Below, piece after piece: positions 42,776 to 58,279 of a stretch of 64,000 nucleotides of DNA; positions within the stretch are counted from its first letter, which is position 1, and every line of letters starts with the position of its first letter. The notes beneath the pieces are model-generated. The model was not told where the DNA came from. It made no database searches and worked only from the letters and a program-made list of their open reading frames with translations. A program made the position numbers and the translations under genes. The stretch comes from Desulfuromusa kysingii (GTDB lineage: Bacteria > Desulfobacterota > Desulfuromonadia > Desulfuromonadales > Geopsychrobacteraceae): assembly GCF_900107645.1 (NCBI RefSeq), contig NZ_FNQN01000008.1, positions 66,267 through 130,266 of the forward strand, given 5' to 3'.

Positions 42776-42884
42776 TTTTTTTAACGCAGAGGCGCTGAGA
42801 AAGACAAAACCAGAACCTTTTTGAGGAATTAAAACCTAAATAAGGTCTTAAGCCTCCCTCCATCTCTCCGCCTCTGCATTAAAA
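42776..42884. repeat. TIR repeat, copy 1 (between regulator and scpA)
   Basis: It starts directly after the regulator stop codon. The left end is TTTTTTAACGCAGAGGCGCT and the right end is CTCCGCCTCTGCATTAAAA, which are inverted copies. The inner part is short and lacks the CCACCAAGG core. It shares its ends with seven other loci between here and 58.2 kb. Confidence 0.8.
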
Positions 42885-45064: not shown

Positions 45065-45187
45065 TTTTTTAACGGAGAGACGCTGAGCTGGAGAGACGGA
45101 GAGAAAGTTCAAGATCTTTTTTGGGTTTTAAAACCGAGAAGAAGCTTTTGATTGCTCTGCTCTCCACCTCTCCGCCTCTCCGTTAAA
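45065..45187. repeat. TIR repeat, copy 2 (between scpA and meaB)
   Basis: Left end TTTTTTAACGGAGAGACGCT, right end CTCCGCCTCTCCGTTAAA. Total length is about 120 bases, with a TTTTAAAACC core and no gene. It lies inside the methylmalonyl-CoA operon. Confidence 0.85.
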
Positions 45188-45214
45188 TTGCTTTTTGTCA
45201 TTAAGGTTTAGATT

Positions 45215-46192
45215 TTGTCTGATATTCAAAAACTTGCCGACGGTGTACGCACTGGCAACATTCGTTCTCTTGCCAAAGCAATCACCTTGATTGAGAGTCG
45301 TAATCCTGACCACTCTGGTGATGCCGCATCCTTGCTTGACCAGCTCTTGCCTGACTCCGGTGATTCGATCCGGATTGGCATTTCAGGAGTTCCCGGCGTT
45401 GGCAAGAGCACTTTCATTGAAGCGTTAGGGATGAATTTGTTACAGCAAGGATATAAAGTTGCTATTCTCGCTGTTGATCCATCCTCTCAGCTCTCTGGCG
45501 GTTCCATCCTCGGAGACAAAACCCGGATGGAAAACCTTGCCCGCGAAGCGAACGCCTTTATCCGTCCATCCCCGGCTGGCAGCAATCTTGGCGGGGTTGC
45601 CCGTAAAACCCGCGAAACCATGCTCCTCTGCGAAGCCGCAGGATACAACATCATCATCGTCGAAACCGTTGGCGTCGGTCAGTCCGAGATTGCTGTGGCT
45701 GCCATGGTCGATTTCTTTCTCTTACTCCAGTTGGCCAATGCTGGAGACGAACTTCAGGGGATCAAAAAAGGGGTCATGGAGATCGCTGACGCCATTCTGA
45801 TCAACAAAGCCGAAGGGGAAAATCGTCCCCGCGCTGAATTGGCAAGACAACAATACGAAAATGCCTTGCATCTCCTCCGTCCCAAAAATGACCATTGGCA
45901 AGTCCCAGCGTTGCTCTGTAGTGCCCTTCATCATCAAGGGATAGATGAAGTCTGGAATCTGATTCTTGACTTCGTTGCCACCATGAAAAAAGAACATCAA
46001 TTTACCAGCAAACGGCAACTCCAAGCGACCGACTGGATGTGGACCATGGTGATGGACAACTTAAAAGACCTGTTCCTGCAGGATAAAAATGTCGCTGCCA
46101 TGATCGATCAAGTCCAAACCGGCGTCAGCAATGGGACAACACCACCAAGCGTGGCAGCAAAAAGGTTGCTAGAAGCATTTAAAAGGAATTGA
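45215..46192 (+). CDS. meaB: Methylmalonyl-CoA mutase-associated GTPase MeaB
   Basis: A 325-residue G3E-family GTPase with Walker A GVPGVGKST near residue 60 and AVDPSSQLSGGSILGDKTRM, the family signature. NKAEGENR is the base-recognition loop. It protects and reloads the cobalamin of methylmalonyl-CoA mutase. The start is TTG at 45215 with AAGG upstream, which is weaker than usual. It follows scpA after repeat copy 2 and precedes the nuclease-carrying element. Confidence 0.94.
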   Translation: MSDIQKLADGVRTGNIRSLAKAITLIESRNPDHSGDAASLLDQLLPDSGDSIRIGISGVPGVGKSTFIEALGMNLLQQGYKVAILAVDPSSQLSGGSILGDKTRMENLAREANAFIRPSPAGSNLGGVARKTRETMLLCEAAGYNIIIVETVGVGQSEIAVAAMVDFFLLLQLANAGDELQGIKKGVMEIADAILINKAEGENRPRAELARQQYENALHLLRPKNDHWQVPALLCSALHHQGIDEVWNLILDFVATMKKEHQFTSKRQLQATDWMWTMVMDNLKDLFLQDKNVAAMIDQVQTGVSNGTTPPSVAAKRLLEAFKRN

Positions 46193-46672
46193 TTTTTAAC
46201 GGAGAGGGGGAAAGATGGAGAGGCTCGCAGAGAAAAGCAACAGGCTTAATCTATTAAGCGGACAAATTCTTGATGCCGCCATTGAAGTTCATCAAGTTTT
46301 AGGTGGTCCAGGTCTTCTCGAGGCTGTTTACGAAGAAGCCTTGGCCTATGAACTTAGACTACGAGATATTGGCGTTGAAAGACAAATACCCGTCCCTATA
46401 ATATATAAAGAGCACAGGCTAAAGAATCCTCTGTTCCTTGATCTTTTTATAAGCAAACAAATTATCGTTGAAGTCAAAAGCGTTGAAAAATTCAACCCAG
46501 TATTCAACGCTCAGCTATTAACATATCTACGCTTGATGAACATTCCACTTGGTCTGATTATAAATTTTGGTGAAAAATATATTAAAAATGGTTTCCATAG
46601 AGTCGTAAATAACTTTCCAGGAGAATAAAGATTTTCTCTCCGGCTCTCCCCCTCAGCGCCTCTCCGTTAAAA
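46193..46672 (+). mobile_element. TIR element carrying a GxxExxY nuclease gene (copy 3)
   Basis: This 480-base unit begins right after the meaB stop. Its left end is TTTTTAACGGAGAGGGGGAA and its right end is CAGCGCCTCTCCGTTAAAA. The right end, reverse-complemented, aligns with the left over about 40 bases apart from an 8-base gap (GCGCTGAG-like segment missing on the left). The interior is one ORF with almost no spare sequence: 22 bases before its ATG and about 44 after its stop. The same ends occur at seven other loci in this window without an ORF. No target-site duplication was established. Confidence 0.68.
46215..46628 (+). CDS. GxxExxY protein (PDDEXK nuclease superfamily), nested in a TIR element
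   Basis: A 137-residue protein with the name-giving motif GLLEAVYEEALAYEL (G-x-x-E-x-x-Y) near residue 33 and the nuclease-like core LDLFISKQIIVEVKSVE followed by NAQLLTYLRLMNIPLGLIIN. The Asp and the E-x-K match PDDEXK spacing. Members are small proteins found in many copies in some genomes; their function is not known to me. The gene fills the inside of a terminal-inverted-repeat element, and its GGAGAGGGGG ribosome-binding site and ATG lie inside the left repeat. It interrupts the meaB-mce gap. Confidence 0.85.
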   Translation: MERLAEKSNRLNLLSGQILDAAIEVHQVLGGPGLLEAVYEEALAYELRLRDIGVERQIPVPIIYKEHRLKNPLFLDLFISKQIIVEVKSVEKFNPVFNAQLLTYLRLMNIPLGLIINFGEKYIKNGFHRVVNNFPGE

Positions 46673-46682
46673 GGAGTCAAAT

Positions 46683-47090
46683 ATGCTAAAAAAAATCAAC
46701 CACATCGGTATCGCCGTTAAAAGCCTGGAAGACTCTATCCCCTTTTACCGTGATCAACTCGGGATGAACTTCGAAGGGACAGAAGAAGTCGCAGAGCAGA
46801 AAGTCAAAGTCGCTTTTTTACAGATCGGTGAAAGTCGGATTGAGCTATTAGAACCAACCAGTGATGATTCACCCATTGCCAAGTTTCTGGCAAAAAAGGG
46901 GGAAGGTGTCCATCACATGGCTTATGAAGTCGATGATGTGGCTGCAGCTCTGGAACAGATGAAACAAGAAGGGGTTCGCCTGATTGACGAGACTCCCCGT
47001 CACGGTGCCCACAACAGTTTAATTGCTTTTTTACACCCGAAAGCAACCGGCGGGGTGCTGACAGAAATTTGTCAAGCAGGGAAACATTAA
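46683..47090 (+). CDS. mce: Methylmalonyl-CoA epimerase
   Basis: A 135-residue vicinal oxygen chelate (glyoxalase-fold) enzyme: KINHIGIAVKSLEDSIPFYR at the start with metal-binding His, GEGVHHMAYEVDDV and the C-terminal GVLTEICQ. It interconverts the (R) and (S) forms of methylmalonyl-CoA. It follows the nuclease element by about 10 bases and is the last gene of the methylmalonyl-CoA set. Confidence 0.95.
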   Translation: MLKKINHIGIAVKSLEDSIPFYRDQLGMNFEGTEEVAEQKVKVAFLQIGESRIELLEPTSDDSPIAKFLAKKGEGVHHMAYEVDDVAAALEQMKQEGVRLIDETPRHGAHNSLIAFLHPKATGGVLTEICQAGKH

Positions 47091-49151: not shown

Positions 49152-50861
49152 ATGAAACTAGTTGCTAGATTGAGTCTCATTCTTATCCTCTGCTTTCCGC
49201 TAACATCACTAGCTCAAATTCCAGAGCAAATTAAGAATGATTTTGCACCAGTGAGTGGAACGATCATCATGCCGATTGGAGAAGAATATCTAGTTGACCT
49301 TGATGCCTCAAGCAACTTACAAGTCGGCGACATTCTAACCCTGATTCAAAGTGGTGAGAAAGTTATCCATCCGGTAACAAAAGAAACCCTGGGAACCCTC
49401 GAACTTGCCAAGGGCTTCTTACAGGTGACTCAAATCAAATCAGGATATTCATATGTCAAGCTCCTATCTGCGGAGATGACCCCACAGAAAGGGGATCAAC
49501 TTAAACGGTTTACGCAAACACCGACCCGATTTGAATTTTCACAGCCTGCTGACCGAATCGCTGCAGAGTTAAAGATGGCACTTCCCCAACTGAACTGGTT
49601 GAGCGATCACGACACAACAGAGCCAGAACTAATATTTCACCTTGCAGACGATAAGCTACAAGTGACCAACAGTGCTGATGTTGTGTTACGACAATACCCA
49701 TATCGCGACGGCAAACTCACGTCTTCTCTCGCAGTCGCACCCCCAAAAAACAACTTGACCTTGCAAAATGAGGAAAAATCACTGCTCAACAAAACCGTGG
49801 GAAGCCTTACCAGTGCTATTGGCATCAAAACAAAGGATAAACGGCTCGAAAATCCGGGCATCGTTCAAAGCCAGAACAGCACTGATGGCTCTTGGGTCGG
49901 CGCTGATATTGATGGCAACCCGGTCGGAATAACAGTCGCGGATTTTGATGGTGATGGACTATTGGAGATTGCTGTCGCCACAGAAAAGCAGCTGCGCATC
50001 CTGCGGAAAACAGACAGCAACCTGACCCAAGTCGCAACCGTCAACTTCTCTGTTGGTGTCCGTCTGTTAAGCCTGGATTCCCTTGACCTTGATAGTGACG
50101 GCATCCCAGAACTCTACCTGACCGCCCATTCAGACACAAAACTCAGTTCACAAGTCGTTAAATATATAAATGGTGATTATCAAACCACCATCAATCAAGT
50201 TCCCTGGTTTTTCCGTGTTGTTAACCTTGCAGGCATGGGTAAGCTTCTCCTTGGGCAAACCTTGGGCGACCTCGACACCCCTTTTTCAGAGCAACCATTC
50301 CGCGTTGAATACTCAGAAGGAAAACTCGTCAAAGGTGACAATATAAACCTGCCAAACACATACGATCCCTTCAGCTTAACCACAATCAGTGGAATCAATG
50401 ACGAACTATTCTATGCGGAAATTACGTCTCAAGATACTTTGCACATCACCAGCTTAGGCGGTGAAACTGCATGGAAATCTGATGATCATTACGGTGGTAC
50501 GGAAACTTTTTTCTATAACGTTGAAGAAACTGAAAGTGTGCAATCAACACCAATCAATATTCAAAAAAGACTTATTTCTCTAACGACAGGGGAATTACTT
50601 GTTGTAAAAAATGAAGGATTCCGTTTGTTTGAACGATATCACGATTATGATCAAAGCCGTGTCATTGCTTTCACATGGGACAATACATCTCTGAATGAAA
50701 AATGGCGAACTCCTGACGTAAAAGGTTATATTGCTGATTTCAGCGTCGCTGATGCTGACAATGATGGTCAAGATGAATTGGTCACAGTGATAAACTACAA
50801 GAAGGATTTTTTCATACAAAATGGGCGATCATCCGTCGTCATTTACGAACTGAATCAATAA
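49152..50861 (+). CDS. Secreted FG-GAP/VCBS-repeat protein
   Basis: A 569-residue protein with an N-terminal signal peptide (RLSLILILCFPLTSLA). Repeats of the FG-GAP/calcium-loop type are visible: VADFDGDGLLEIAVAT, LDLDSDGIPELYLT and VADADNDGQDELVTV, each with D-x-D-x-D-G. These form beta-propeller blades that bind calcium. The N-terminal region (GEEYLVDLDASSNLQVGDIL) may be a separate domain. The ATG at 49152 is preferred over an upstream TTG. It is probably periplasmic or surface-exposed; its role is unknown. Confidence 0.75.
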   Translation: MKLVARLSLILILCFPLTSLAQIPEQIKNDFAPVSGTIIMPIGEEYLVDLDASSNLQVGDILTLIQSGEKVIHPVTKETLGTLELAKGFLQVTQIKSGYSYVKLLSAEMTPQKGDQLKRFTQTPTRFEFSQPADRIAAELKMALPQLNWLSDHDTTEPELIFHLADDKLQVTNSADVVLRQYPYRDGKLTSSLAVAPPKNNLTLQNEEKSLLNKTVGSLTSAIGIKTKDKRLENPGIVQSQNSTDGSWVGADIDGNPVGITVADFDGDGLLEIAVATEKQLRILRKTDSNLTQVATVNFSVGVRLLSLDSLDLDSDGIPELYLTAHSDTKLSSQVVKYINGDYQTTINQVPWFFRVVNLAGMGKLLLGQTLGDLDTPFSEQPFRVEYSEGKLVKGDNINLPNTYDPFSLTTISGINDELFYAEITSQDTLHITSLGGETAWKSDDHYGGTETFFYNVEETESVQSTPINIQKRLISLTTGELLVVKNEGFRLFERYHDYDQSRVIAFTWDNTSLNEKWRTPDVKGYIADFSVADADNDGQDELVTVINYKKDFFIQNGRSSVVIYELNQ

Positions 50862-50865
50862 TCCA

Positions 50866-50985
50866 TTAAAACCTCCAGCGCTGAGGTGGAGAGAAGCAGA
50901 GAAAGACTAAATCGTCTTTACGATTACAAATGCTAACAAGGCTTTCTCTGCGACCTCTCCGTTCTTTGCGTCTCTCCGTTAAAGA
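50866..50985. repeat. TIR repeat, copy 4 (before the ABC-F gene)
   Basis: Left end ATTAAAACCTCCAGCGCTGA is degenerate; the right end GTCTCTCCGTTAAAG is intact. About 120 bases, without a gene and without the CCACCAAGG core. Confidence 0.75.
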
Positions 50986-52781: not shown

Positions 52782-53819
52782 TTTTTTAACGGAGAGGCGC
52801 TGAGACAGAGAGACGGAGAGAAAGTCAAAACCAGACGTTAGCCACCAAGGCACCAAGTCCGCCAAGACAACCAAAATCAAAAGCGTTTTTTAAGGTTTAA
52901 AACCAAAATCAAGTTATGCTTTTTCTTGGTGTTCTTGACACCTTGGTAGCTATCTTAAAGATTGTGGTTCCCCTCTCCGTCTCTCCAACTCTGCGCCTCT
53001 GCGTTAAAAAACTATTCAAGTAAAACTTCAACCTAAACCCTATCCACCAAGGTTCCAATCCCGTCAAGACAACCAAAACCAAAAGCGTTTTTTAAGGTTT
53101 AAAACCAAAAACAAGTTATGCTTTTTCTTGGTGCTCTTGGTGCTCTTGGCGTCTTGGTGGCTATATTAAAGATTGTGTTTTCCCTCCACCTCTCCAACTC
53201 TGCGCCTCTCCGTTAAAAAACGGCTCAAGTAAAACCTCAGCCTAAACCCTATCCACCAAGGTTCCAATCCCGTCAAGACGACTAAAGCCAAAGATGTTTT
53301 TAAGGTTTAAAACCAAAACAAATCCTGCTTTTTCCTTGGTGTTCTTGACACCTTGGTAGCTATCTTAAAGATTGTGGTTCCCCTCTCCGTCTCTCCAACT
53401 CTGCGCCTCTCCGTTAAAAAACGACTCAAGTAAAACTCCAGCCTAAACCCTATCCACCAAGGCACCAAGTCCGCCAAGACAACTAAAGCCAAAGATGTTT
53501 TTAAGGTTTAAAACCAAAAACAAATCCTGCTTTTTTCTTGGTGCTCTTGGCGCCTTGGTGGCTATATTAAAGATTGTGTTTCCCCTCTCCACCTCTCCAA
53601 CTCTGCGCCTCTCCGTTAAAAAACAACTCAAGTAAAACTTCAGCCTAAACCCTATCCACCAAGGCTCCAATCCTGCCAAGACAACTAAAGCCAAAGATGT
53701 TTTTAAGGTTTAAAACCAAAACAAATCCTGCTTTTCCTTGGTGATCTTGGCGCTTTGGTGGCTATATTAAAGATTGTGTTTCCCCTCTCCGTCTCTCCAA
53801 CTTTGCGTCTCTGCGTTAA
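52782..53819. repeat. TIR repeat, copy 5: five-unit tandem array
   Basis: It opens with TTTTTTAACGGAGAGGCGCT and has five right ends of the type GCGCCTCTCCGTTAAAAAA, with GTTAA at 53003, 53212, 53413, 53615 and 53815 (periods 209, 201, 202, 200). Each unit holds an inner palindrome: CCACCAAGGCACCAAG-like on the left and CTTGGTG...CCTTGGTGG on the right around AAGGTTTAAAACC. Only the first unit has the AACGGAGAG left end; the rest begin ACTCAAGTAAAAC. Short ORFs such as MALVVLADLVPWW are side products. No gene is present in these 1,040 bases. Confidence 0.92.
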
Positions 53820-53823
53820 GTCG

Positions 53824-54657
53824 TTACTTTTTATCCAGATGCAGATCCGCACCACAGAATTTACAATGCTTCGCATTAACATCATGCCCTTCTGCGCTAC
53901 ATTCTGGACAAACTTGTGTGGAGATATGTCTCTTGAACGTTAGTTCTGCCGTCACAATCCCGGTCGGAATAGCAATGATACCGTAACCAAGAATCATCAC
54001 CAGTGAAGCGATCGCCTGTCCCAAACTTGTCTGTGGCGAGATGTCCCCGTAACCAACGGTCGTCATGGTGACAACAGCCCAGTAAATCGAACGAGGGATG
54101 CTGGTAAAGCCGTTTTCTGCCCCTTCGACCAGATACATCAACGAACCAAAAATGATCATCATGAGAAAAACAGAGAGGAGAAATACGGAGATTTTCCGCC
54201 TGCTGGCCCATAGGGCACGCTGTAGAAAATTCGATTCACCTACATACTGAACCAGTTTCAAAACCCGAAACACTCGCAACAAACGCAGGATACGGATAAC
54301 TAAAAAATATTTACCGCTGGGGAGCAAGAGACTGACATACGAGGGGAGAATTGAGAGCAGATCAACAATGCCGTAAAAACTGGTAGCATATTTGGAAGGA
54401 CGGCCAATACAACTGAGACGGAGCAGATACTCAGCGGTGAAAATAATGGTAAAAAACCATTCAAGAAAAAGAAACAGTTGCCCGTATTTTAGATTCAGAT
54501 CAGCGACACTGTCCAGCATCACCACAATGACGCTAATGATAATACTGAAGATCAGCAGGAGATCAAATAGCTTACCCGTTGGCGTGTCCGCCTCAAAAAT
54601 TATCGTGTGCAGCCGATGGCGCAAATTTTGATCTGAATCGAGTTTACGTTCGGGCAT
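53824..54657 (-). CDS. Voltage-gated-type potassium channel with C-terminal zinc ribbon
   Basis: A 277-residue channel with six membrane helices. S4 is RILRLLRVFRVLKLVQYV near 122-140 with regularly spaced Arg. The selectivity filter is TMTTVGYGD near 200. The last ~35 residues (CPECSAEGHDVNAKHCKFCG) form a C4 zinc ribbon, not the usual RCK or cyclic-nucleotide domain. It is an inner-membrane potassium channel of the Kch/KvAP type. It is flanked on both sides by direct copies of the same tandem repeat array, and its stop lies 4 bases from the left one. Confidence 0.9.
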   Translation of the reverse strand: MPERKLDSDQNLRHRLHTIIFEADTPTGKLFDLLLIFSIIISVIVVMLDSVADLNLKYGQLFLFLEWFFTIIFTAEYLLRLSCIGRPSKYATSFYGIVDLLSILPSYVSLLLPSGKYFLVIRILRLLRVFRVLKLVQYVGESNFLQRALWASRRKISVFLLSVFLMMIIFGSLMYLVEGAENGFTSIPRSIYWAVVTMTTVGYGDISPQTSLGQAIASLVMILGYGIIAIPTGIVTAELTFKRHISTQVCPECSAEGHDVNAKHCKFCGADLHLDKK

Positions 54658-54674
54658 TTTACCTCCAGAGAAAA

Positions 54675-55069
54675 CCTTTTAACGGAGAGACGCTGAGGGG
54701 GAGAGCTGGAGAGAAAGTCAAAACCAAACATTAGCCACCAAGACACCAAGTTCGCCAAGACAACCAAAATCAAAATCGTTTTTAAGGTTTTAAAACCAAA
54801 AACAAGTTTTGCTTTTCCTTGGTTCTCTTCGTGGCTCTCTTTAAGATTATGTTTTCCCTCTGCGCCTCTGCGTTAAAAAACAACTCAAGTAAAACTTCAG
54901 CCACTAAGGCACCAAGCCTGCCAAGACACCCAAAGCCAAAGATGGTTTAAGATTTAAAATCAGAAAAGAGGTTTTGCTTTTCCTTGGTGATCTTGGTGTC
55001 TTGGTGGCTCTCTTAAAGATTGTGCTTTCTCTCTCCGTCTCTCCAACTCAGCGTCTCTCCGTTAAAAAT
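54675..55069. repeat. TIR repeat, copy 6: two-unit tandem array
   Basis: It begins CTTTTAACGGAGAGACGCTG and has right ends at 54871 and 55061 (period about 190). The second unit starts AACTCAAGTAAAACTTCAGC, identical to the junctions of copy 5. It carries the CCACCAAG/CTTGGTGG inner palindrome. It has the same orientation as copy 5, with the potassium channel gene between them. The right end abuts the glcF stop. No gene was found. Confidence 0.9.
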
Positions 55070-55070
55070 A

Positions 55071-56330
55071 CTATTCTGGCAAAACTTCCGCGACAAGATC
55101 GAGAATATGGACCACACGTTGTTTTTCATCAGCATGATTAATACTATCTTGCAGCTGCATAATACAACCAGGGCAGTCGGTGGCGACCAGTTCCGCACCG
55201 CTCTCTTTGATAAATCCTGCTTTTTTTGCGCCGATTTTTTTACTGGTGTCATAGTGGTAGACAGAGTACGTTCCGCCCAATCCACAGCACGTCCCAGCAT
55301 CTTCCATTTCGACAAAATCAACTTGCGGTAACGCCTTCAGGATCGCCCGTGGTTCGGCGGTAATGCCATGGTTGCGCAGATGACAAGGATCGTGATAAGT
55401 CACCTTCACCTGATCTTGTCGTTTCGGCAGTTGAGCCAACTTGTCAGCAAATCCCTGCTCGATCAAGAACACAAAAATATCTTTGACCTTGTCTCTGAAC
55501 TCGTTGAACTCCTCCCCCATTCCCGGATAGATCTGGGTTAATCCCGAATGGCAAGAGGCACAGGCAGTGACAATATAATCGTATTTATTTTGCTGGAATA
55601 CTGCCAAATTTTCTTCTGCAAGGGATTCAACCGTGTTGGCCGCTCCGGCTGAGACCGCTGGCAGACCACAACAAACTTGCGCTTTGGGGATGATCACTGT
55701 CACCCCGATAAACTTGAGGGCTTTGAGTAAGGCTTCGCCCGAATCAGGGTACATATAGTTGATACCGCAACCGGTAAAGAAAAGAACTGTCGGTTTGTCA
55801 GGATCACCAGGGATAACTTCAGGATGGCGTTCCCGAAACGGCTTTGACGTTAATGGCGGCAACGTTCGGTCTGAACTGATAAATGGGGCGGGAAACCGTA
55901 GCCTTAAACCACTCTGTTCAGGGATTTTTTTGAATAATAATTTGGAGAAAGCACCGCCACCTTTTGCCAGCAGATTCATCACCCCCTGATGCTTGAGGAC
56001 GGTACCAACCCCTTTACCAAAGGTCGATAACCCTTTACGATTGGCAATTTCCCGCCGGGTCGCGGCAACGATATCCTCGGTATGGACTTTATTGGGACAC
56101 TGAGAATAACAACTACCACACAGGAGGCACTGGGACATATCAAGGAGAAATTTTTCCTCCAATTCAACATCCCCCTTCAACAAGGAATCCGCCAGAGCAA
56201 TCTTGCCACGGGCAACACGCCCTTCATGCTTCTCAGCACCGAAAGCAGGACAATGGGCACGACAGCCACCACATTTAACACACTGGTCAATTTCGTCACG
56301 ATAATCTTCTAATTTTTTTAGCTTAGCCAT
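55071..56330 (-). CDS. glcF: Glycolate/lactate oxidase iron-sulfur subunit GlcF
   Basis: A 419-residue protein with two 4Fe-4S ferredoxin motifs (CVKCGGCRAHCP at 16-27, CLLCGSCYSQCP near 70) and two CCG domains (VCCGLPAVSAG and GTCCGLGGTYS). It passes electrons from the FAD subunit to the quinone pool. The ATG at 56330 is preferred; the longer reading frame runs into repeat copy 7. It lies downstream of glcD but is separated from it by that repeat. Confidence 0.9.
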   Translation of the reverse strand: MAKLKKLEDYRDEIDQCVKCGGCRAHCPAFGAEKHEGRVARGKIALADSLLKGDVELEEKFLLDMSQCLLCGSCYSQCPNKVHTEDIVAATRREIANRKGLSTFGKGVGTVLKHQGVMNLLAKGGGAFSKLLFKKIPEQSGLRLRFPAPFISSDRTLPPLTSKPFRERHPEVIPGDPDKPTVLFFTGCGINYMYPDSGEALLKALKFIGVTVIIPKAQVCCGLPAVSAGAANTVESLAEENLAVFQQNKYDYIVTACASCHSGLTQIYPGMGEEFNEFRDKVKDIFVFLIEQGFADKLAQLPKRQDQVKVTYHDPCHLRNHGITAEPRAILKALPQVDFVEMEDAGTCCGLGGTYSVYHYDTSKKIGAKKAGFIKESGAELVATDCPGCIMQLQDSINHADEKQRVVHILDLVAEVLPE

Positions 56331-56350: not shown

Positions 56351-56578
56351 ATTTTAACGGAGAGCCGCTGAGGAGGAGAGGAGGATCAAAACCTTTGATT
56401 TGCCACCAAGGCACCAAGACCACCAAGGAAAAACACAAAACCTTTTTTACTTTTGGTTTTAAAACCTTAAAAACGCTTTTGACTTTGGTTGTCTCGGTGT
56501 TCTTGGCGCCTTGGTGGCTATCATCTGGTTTTGACTTTCTCTCCCTCTCTCCCCCTCAGCGTCTCTCCGTTAAAAAAA
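56351..56578. repeat. TIR repeat, copy 7 (between glcF and glcD)
   Basis: A single complete unit: left TTTTAACGGAGAGCCGCTGA, inner TGCCACCAAGGCACCAAG, then CTTGGCGCCTTGGTGGC, right CAGCGTCTCTCCGTTAAAAA. The core AAAACCTTAAAAACGCTTTT is inverted relative to copy 5, so the unit can sit in either orientation. It ends 1 base before the glcD stop. Confidence 0.92.
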
Positions 56579-58002: not shown

Positions 58003-58213
58003 CTTTAATGGAGAGGCGCCGAGAAGGAGAGTTGCAGCGAAAAGACAAACTTAGAAATGAGACAGCAAGGCTCCAAGAACTCCAGGAAAACCAAAAAAAT
58101 TGGGTTTAACCCCTTATAAATGCTTTTGACTTTGATCGTCTTGGTGAATGGTGGCTATGCTTAAGATTGTGTTTTTCCTCTCTATCTCTCCACCTTTGCG
58201 CCTCTCCGTTAAC
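58003..58213. repeat. TIR repeat, copy 8 (between glcD and the HDOD-GGDEF gene)
   Basis: Left CTTTAATGGAGAGGCGCCGA, right TGCGCCTCTCCGTTAACAG, with a degenerate CAAGGCTCCAAG/CTTGGTGAATGGTGG core. One unit of about 210 bases; the most diverged full-length copy. No gene was found. Confidence 0.82.
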
Positions 58214-58279
58214 AGTTTTTTTCACTGAAGGGCTGATGGCTAATTCAGACCATATTATCAAATATAATACCAAATAAGT

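Follow-up and report, generated by a model that had tools for sequence, protein, structure and literature searches.

A GxxExxY gene and its inverted hexamer-array ends form one unit across prokaryotic phyla

Here we report that a small GxxExxY gene and the inverted ends that enclose it form one unit, and that they do so across at least a dozen phyla. The copy described in most detail lies in a stretch of 64,000 nucleotides of the Desulfuromusa kysingii genome (contig NZ_FNQN01000008.1), the whole of which we call the window. We hold with moderate confidence that this unit is a minimal selfish element whose predicted RecB/Cas4-type nuclease most likely recognises its own ends.

The gene-bearing element of the window is 480 bp long, has inverted ends and contains one ORF only (Table 1). 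It begins immediately 3' of the stop codon (46190-46192) of a gene that we take, from its sequence and context, to be meaB, and its right edge lies 10 bp upstream of the start codon of what is presumably, on the same grounds, the methylmalonyl-CoA epimerase gene (mce). An earlier, sequence-only reading of this DNA had proposed a 480-base unit with inverted ends, a single ORF of the GxxExxY/PDDEXK type, and a ribosome-binding site and ATG inside the left repeat, and each of these points was borne out. The motif TTTTAACGGAGAG is present at 46194-46206 on the forward strand with its exact reverse complement at 46660-46672; the ORF starts within the left repeat, its ATG being preceded by the purine-rich stretch GGAGAGGGGGAAAG; and its product scores 128 bits against PF13366 (cut-off 22) and 133.5 bits against TIGR04256 (cut-off 35), PDDEXK_3/GxxExxY being the only family found with the Pfam and NCBIfam profiles. 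Allowing up to two mismatches, the TTTTAACGGAGAG motif occurs 21 times in the window; dinucleotide shuffles average 1.52 occurrences and never exceed 6.

Table 1. Positions of the gene-bearing element, its neighbours, the gene-less elements and a related locus (window coordinates unless a locus is named)
Feature	Position	Strand	Remarks
Gene-less element upstream of mutB	42779..42884		Same ends
Gene-less element between mutB and meaB	45067..45188		Same junction in G008 without element
meaB (methylmalonyl-CoA mutase-associated GTPase; presumed)	45215..46192	+	Host gene upstream of element
Complete gene-bearing element	46193..46672	+	GxxExxY ORF enclosed by left and right inverted arrays
Left terminal array TTTTAACGGAGAGGGGGAAAGATGGAGAGGCTCGCAGAGAAAA	46193..46236	+	Holds RBS-like stretch and ATG at 46215
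GxxExxY ORF, 137 aa	46215..46628	+	PF13366/TIGR04256 member
Right terminal array, inverted copy	46630..46672	-	Inward reading TTTTAACGGAGAGGCGCTGAGGGGGAGAGCCGGAGAGAAAATC, octamer spacing
mce (methylmalonyl-CoA epimerase; presumed)	46683..47090	+	Host gene downstream of element
Gene-less element	50860..50984		Left end decayed
Tandem array of gene-less units	52784..53821		Five right ends against one left end, each unit about 200 bp long
Tandem pair of gene-less elements	54677..55067		Orthologous site empty in G003 and G008
Gene-less element	56352..56575		Common to window and G003, missing in G008
Gene-less element	58003..58214		Orthologous G008 junction without such ends
S23/23S-rRNA-IVP four-helix gene in inverted AGAATAT-type heptamer arrays	L129:863-1500 / L175 (G048:C1:30249-30554)

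The linkage of gene and repeat was examined in 80 relatives taken from GTDB genomes, in members of the family from 60 related genomes, and in a later set drawn from the wider phylum and from IMG/VR. The 220-bp sequences on either side of the gene were compared for an inverted repeat, counted when its score was at least 13; one was present at 99 of 123 GxxExxY loci and at 5 of 238 control positions of the same loci (Fisher P = 2e-58). At a score of at least 15, the flanks of 11 of 15 GxxExxY genes qualified against 4.9% of 309 ordinary genes of the same regions, and nearly all of these high-scoring control genes were themselves enclosed by two of these very repeats. The sequence-only reading named GxxExxY genes of relatives without the terminal repeats as a result that would refute it, and this was partly the case, 19 of the 123 loci having no detectable inverted repeat. 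The loci tested belong to Desulfuromonadales, Myxococcota, Acidobacteriota, Bacteroidota, Planctomycetota, Verrucomicrobiota, Chloroflexota, Cyanobacteriota, Pseudomonadota, Armatimonadota, WOR-3, Auribacterota and Methanocorpusculum. Plasmid records yielded GxxExxY elements in 8 of 72,556 cases, and one query of phage records found none, too small a yield for comparing almost identical sites with and without the element. IMG/VR contributed five loci, three of which (L288-L290) have AT-rich repeats of another kind; on the viral contigs L289 and L290 the gene lies between long AT-rich inverted repeats (AAATTTTACTTAAAATTCTTACTT) unlike the unit arrays of chromosomes. In L267 (G059:C1:91-98 kb) we also noted four elements crowded into 7 kb, two with a GxxExxY gene and two with an IVP gene; G045 and G056 have mixed clusters of the same sort.

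The protein is modelled as a minimal PD-(D/E)XK nuclease of the RecB/Cas4 type. The 137-residue sequence contains E36, D76, E86-x-K88 and Q100xxxY104, and the succession E, D, ExK and QxxxY is the pattern of RecB-type nucleases. In an alignment of 41 sequences G31, G33, L35, E36, Y39, E46, Y64, D76, K88, Y104, N117 and F118 were invariant, G33, E36 and Y39 being the residues of the GxxExxY motif, and E86 and Q100 nearly so. A search of PDB sequences gave no convincing relative; the AlphaFold2 model (pLDDT 94.9) has its best PDB match in SSO0001 (E = 8e-4, probability 1.00), which we take to be a Cas4 protein, followed by AdnA and lambda exonuclease. Because the conserved columns of the alignment are devoid of cysteine, the protein lacks a Fe-S cluster of the Cas4 type.

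The ends of the elements are tandem arrays of a 6-bp unit, RCNRA-G or RCNRA-T/A, repeated once per 8-10 bp, a period of about one helical turn. Examples are GCAAAG in Sorangium, ACAGAG in Bacteroidetes, GCCAAG in Anaerolineae, GCGGAT in Auribacterota and a CGAAT type in Flavobacteriaceae. More broadly, the unit reads [ACG]CNRA with G, T or A as its sixth base; the pattern was derived from the first data set, and the search left the last base free. Within an element the two arms agree at C in 98.6%, at R in 95.7%, at A in 100% and at the last base in 98.6% of comparisons, as against 75% at the variable N and 66% in the spacers. Since the fixed positions match at 96-100% and the spacers at 66%, the constraint acts on the unit sequence and not on complementarity as such, and from this pattern we infer recognition rather than pairing of the arms. 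The two arms also differ together between elements: the meaB-mce site of the L029 element has GCAAAG-type units at both ends, and that of the window has the CGGAGAG type at both.

Gene-bearing elements, with a median length of about 490 bp, are placed within operons, a median of 10 nt separating the upstream stop codon from the element. The upstream neighbour is co-directional in 67 of 73 cases compared with 72% for genes of the sampled regions, and both neighbours are so in 52 of 60 compared with 56%. These baseline values were obtained from Desulfuromonadales alone, and the members of the set from Flavobacteriaceae are not independent. Being co-directional and just 3' of stop codons, the GxxExxY ORF is probably read from the host operon in most cases. 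At the meaB-mce junction several relatives have a GxxExxY element, which is decayed in G003 and G030, and the junction is empty of a gene-bearing element in G008 (a member of the same genus), G026, G019, G016 and G023. G003 and G008, whose flanks match, likewise lack the tandem pair at 54677-55067, and at the corresponding empty site (54657-55071), the single clean one examined, no target duplication was recognisable. Decayed GxxExxY fragments are common among the relatives, and G131 contains two gene-bearing copies that are 94% identical over 554 bp and lie 1.2 kb apart. Taken together, the empty sites, the decayed copies and this duplicate show turnover of the element.

Two other small gene families were found between repeats of their own. 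At the same meaB-mce junction G048 carries an S23/IVP gene (PF05635, E = 3.7e-37) flanked by AGAATAT-type heptamer arrays, and among the IVP (PF05635) genes of relatives (L166-L195) inverted heptamer arrays in the flanks scored above the 99th percentile of controls in 20 of 25 cases, the strongest lag being 7 in 16 of 18 periodic flanks. The heptamer repeats at IVP genes often extend into the start of the ORF. DUF559 (PF04480) genes (L226-L255) have G-rich palindromes on both sides in 17 of 19 cases, a count to which ordinary terminator hairpins may contribute; these palindromes are of the CCCTCTCCC..GGGAGAGGG..GGGGTGAGGG type. Repeat architecture differs accordingly by family, with period 7 for IVP, 8-10 for GxxExxY and G-rich palindromes for DUF559. 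For the intervening sequence of the Coxiella 23S rRNA, inverted repeats at the termini, tandem GACAGAT heptamers ahead of an S23p ORF and excision by RNase III have been reported, and the origin of rRNA intervening sequences has been called unclear (PMC4990558). They may share a wider class with the elements described here, because G048 holds an S23-type gene and heptamer arrays at meaB-mce.

Placement within operons could be explained at the level of RNA. The arrays would pair in the operon transcript and RNase III would excise the unit, making an insertion between co-transcribed genes harmless, the ORF would be a passenger or helper, and movement would take an RNA route. The co-directional positions just after stop codons fit this proposal, as do the strong folding of a gene-less element (z = -6.8; the gene-bearing one folds more weakly, z = -2.7), the S23/IVP gene between heptamer-array ends in G048 and the excision of the Coxiella intervening sequence with its inverted repeats and heptamers (PMC4990558). 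We nevertheless consider it unlikely. Pairing would protect the spacers as well as the unit cores, and the arms conserve the cores only; co-direction can stem from selection for expression; and the element has no reverse transcriptase, nor are rRNA intervening sequences known to move by RNA.

The sequence-only reading had counted seven further loci within 16 kb with the same ends and no gene, and all seven could be located (Table 1). These gene-less units have the properties of MITEs, being short and repeated, with inverted ends and no ORF, and missing at orthologous empty sites. The shared end motif is concentrated locally: with at most one mismatch, 18 of the 20 matches of TTAACGSAGAGNCGCNGAG in the whole genome fall in one region (C13:109-124.5 kb), where an even spread would place about 0.08. 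At the site of the array at 52784-53821, five-fold in the window, G003 has a single element and G008 none. Both this array and that at 54677-55067 have one left end and several right ends, and part of their unit, which is about 200 bp long, is similar to the sequence flanking the 55067 site on the right (ACTATTC..GTAAAAC). The same reading regarded the gene-bearing unit as the parent of these elements, a claim that was not supported in that form: the ends are the only sequence in common, the interiors bear no relation to the gene and in many cases contain nested CACCAAG-type ends, and an origin by deletion from such a parent was consequently rejected. The nested second pair of inverted ends is seen within CGGAGAG-type elements at 52835-52960, 54728-54830 and 56396-56520, and likewise in G011 between mutB and meaB. 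The mutB/meaB intergenic sites of L261 (G008) and L262 (G011) show another repeat family, TAGGGGC..GCCCCTA, and no CGGAGAG elements.

Repeat number was also considered as a possible correlate of gene presence within the genus, and no such relation was seen. Genomes with a GxxExxY match have 15, 29, 9, 7, 1, 36, 16 and 13 copies of the repeat, and those without one have 16, 14, 18, 12 and 9, several of these assemblies being incomplete. The sequence-only reading would have been contradicted by repeats equally abundant where the gene is missing; within the genus the counts are indeed alike.

The relation between protein and repeat was clearest for the last base of the unit. When the label "unit ends in G" as opposed to "T, A or C" was placed on a tree of 64 proteins it required 4 changes, compared with a mean of 21.6 after shuffling, none of 500 shuffles being as low. 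The last base is not an effect of the host, since both protein branches, each with the matching unit type, are represented in Bacteroidota as well as in Desulfuromonadales. In a later set, collected after the rule had been fixed, the nearest labelled proteins gave the correct unit type at 16 of 17 scorable loci. Moreover, the three GxxExxY genes of G000 have three different end families, one of which (4 copies) is found only within 1 kb of its gene. These results show that protein and ends evolve as one unit, a relation that could reflect co-inheritance within the element rather than binding. A general correlation between protein similarity and repeat similarity was set aside in favour of this discrete test, being real but due to close pairs; across phyla the correlation is weak, although above within-phylum permutation (9 of 1999 as high, with the mis-oriented protein L144 included).

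The correspondence of protein branch and unit bears on a second alternative, that some other host factor moves the arrays as a general intergenic repeat and the GxxExxY genes are mere passengers. Such hitch-hiking would account for repeats that persist in genomes without a GxxExxY match, for the unrelated interiors of the gene-less elements and for the other small ORF families (IVP, DUF559) between other repeat types. It is at odds with the finding that unit sequence can be predicted from the protein branch, both between phyla and inside a single order, with the three end families of the three genes in G000, and with the separate repeat architecture of each of the three families, and we judge it quite improbable. 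Very improbable in our view is a gene of benefit or addiction to the host (a nuclease toxin or defence gene) with arrays as regulatory sites or terminators, for which a placement favouring expression and the proximity of some members to toxin-antitoxin-like genes (in G131, their identities judged from sequence) might speak, since no conserved partner gene was seen beside GxxExxY at the loci inspected, decayed copies are many, and the elements are rare on plasmids and unfound on phage records.

We return to the minimal selfish element as the favoured explanation and infer that the GxxExxY protein may bind, cut and mobilise its ends. Expression of the gene would come from the host operon, and its product would bind the unit arrays (5'-RCNRA-G or -T/A) and cut or process DNA at or near the ends, after which host repair or replication would complete copying or movement, mostly over short distances; the gene-less elements would keep their ends either through being moved in trans or as relics. 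Three points weigh most against this explanation: repeat number does not correlate with gene presence within the genus, no target duplication was seen at the one clean empty site, and repeats were not detected at 19 loci. A broader proposal, which we advance only tentatively, is that these are pan-prokaryotic transposable elements with a stand-alone RecB/Cas4-type nuclease and no transposase, which reads hexamer arrays in a protein-to-repeat correspondence, S23/IVP elements including the 23S intervening sequence being a heptamer sister type and DUF559 a third. Sequenced genomes commonly encode GxxExxY proteins. Should the linkage hold, these would be the cognate proteins of a large class of bacterial intergenic repeats, knowing the protein would allow its repeat type to be predicted, and ideas on how rRNA intervening sequences arose could be tested through their non-ribosomal relatives. 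A small nuclease recognising arrays of a 6-bp unit would, if real, be of interest for work on DNA recognition.

In the literature searched, outside which most subscription journals lie, we found no assigned function for GxxExxY proteins and no description of their pairing with such repeats, in agreement with the sequence-only reading, which knew of none. The Cas4/RecB-family nucleases SSO0001, AdnA and lambda exonuclease have the same predicted fold and the motifs E, D, ExK and QxxxY, whereas the GxxExxY protein is smaller (137 aa) and its gene stands by itself between inverted repeats, with neither a helicase nor a Cas partner seen. A homing endonuclease cleaves the empty allele, into which its element is then copied; empty alleles of the window element do exist, for example at meaB-mce. 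Insertion sequences and their MITEs resemble the present elements in the combination of a gene-bearing element with short gene-less ones that share its inverted ends and in their presence/absence polymorphism; the GxxExxY element differs in having no DDE, HuH, serine or tyrosine transposase and in ends made of unit arrays, and ordinary insertion sequences are also unlike it in that it is rare on plasmids and unfound on phage records. The 23S rRNA intervening sequence with an S23p ORF (PMC4990558) is similar in its size of about 0.4-0.5 kb, its one small ORF, its terminal inverted repeats, the short tandem units beside the ORF and the insertion in a transcribed unit, whereas the window element lies between the protein genes meaB and mce, its ORF specifies a nuclease in place of the four-helix S23 protein, and its arrays have a period of 8-10 bp, not 7 bp. 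The window element lacks a defining feature of each of three known kinds, namely insertion sequences (it has no transposase), REP/RAYT systems (no Y1 protein) and rRNA intervening sequences (not in rRNA, and with another ORF). In REP/RAYT systems (REPINs) the genes encode Y1 HuH tyrosine transposases and the REPs are palindromic hairpins (PMC2817692, PMC3116915), in place of which the GxxExxY element has a PD-(D/E)XK RecB/Cas4-like protein and tandem arrays of a 6-bp unit. In its organisation the window element is nevertheless like REP/RAYT, with a single-copy gene flanked by a short repeat family in inverted orientation, doublets without a gene scattered in intergenic space and an apparent correspondence of one protein to one repeat.
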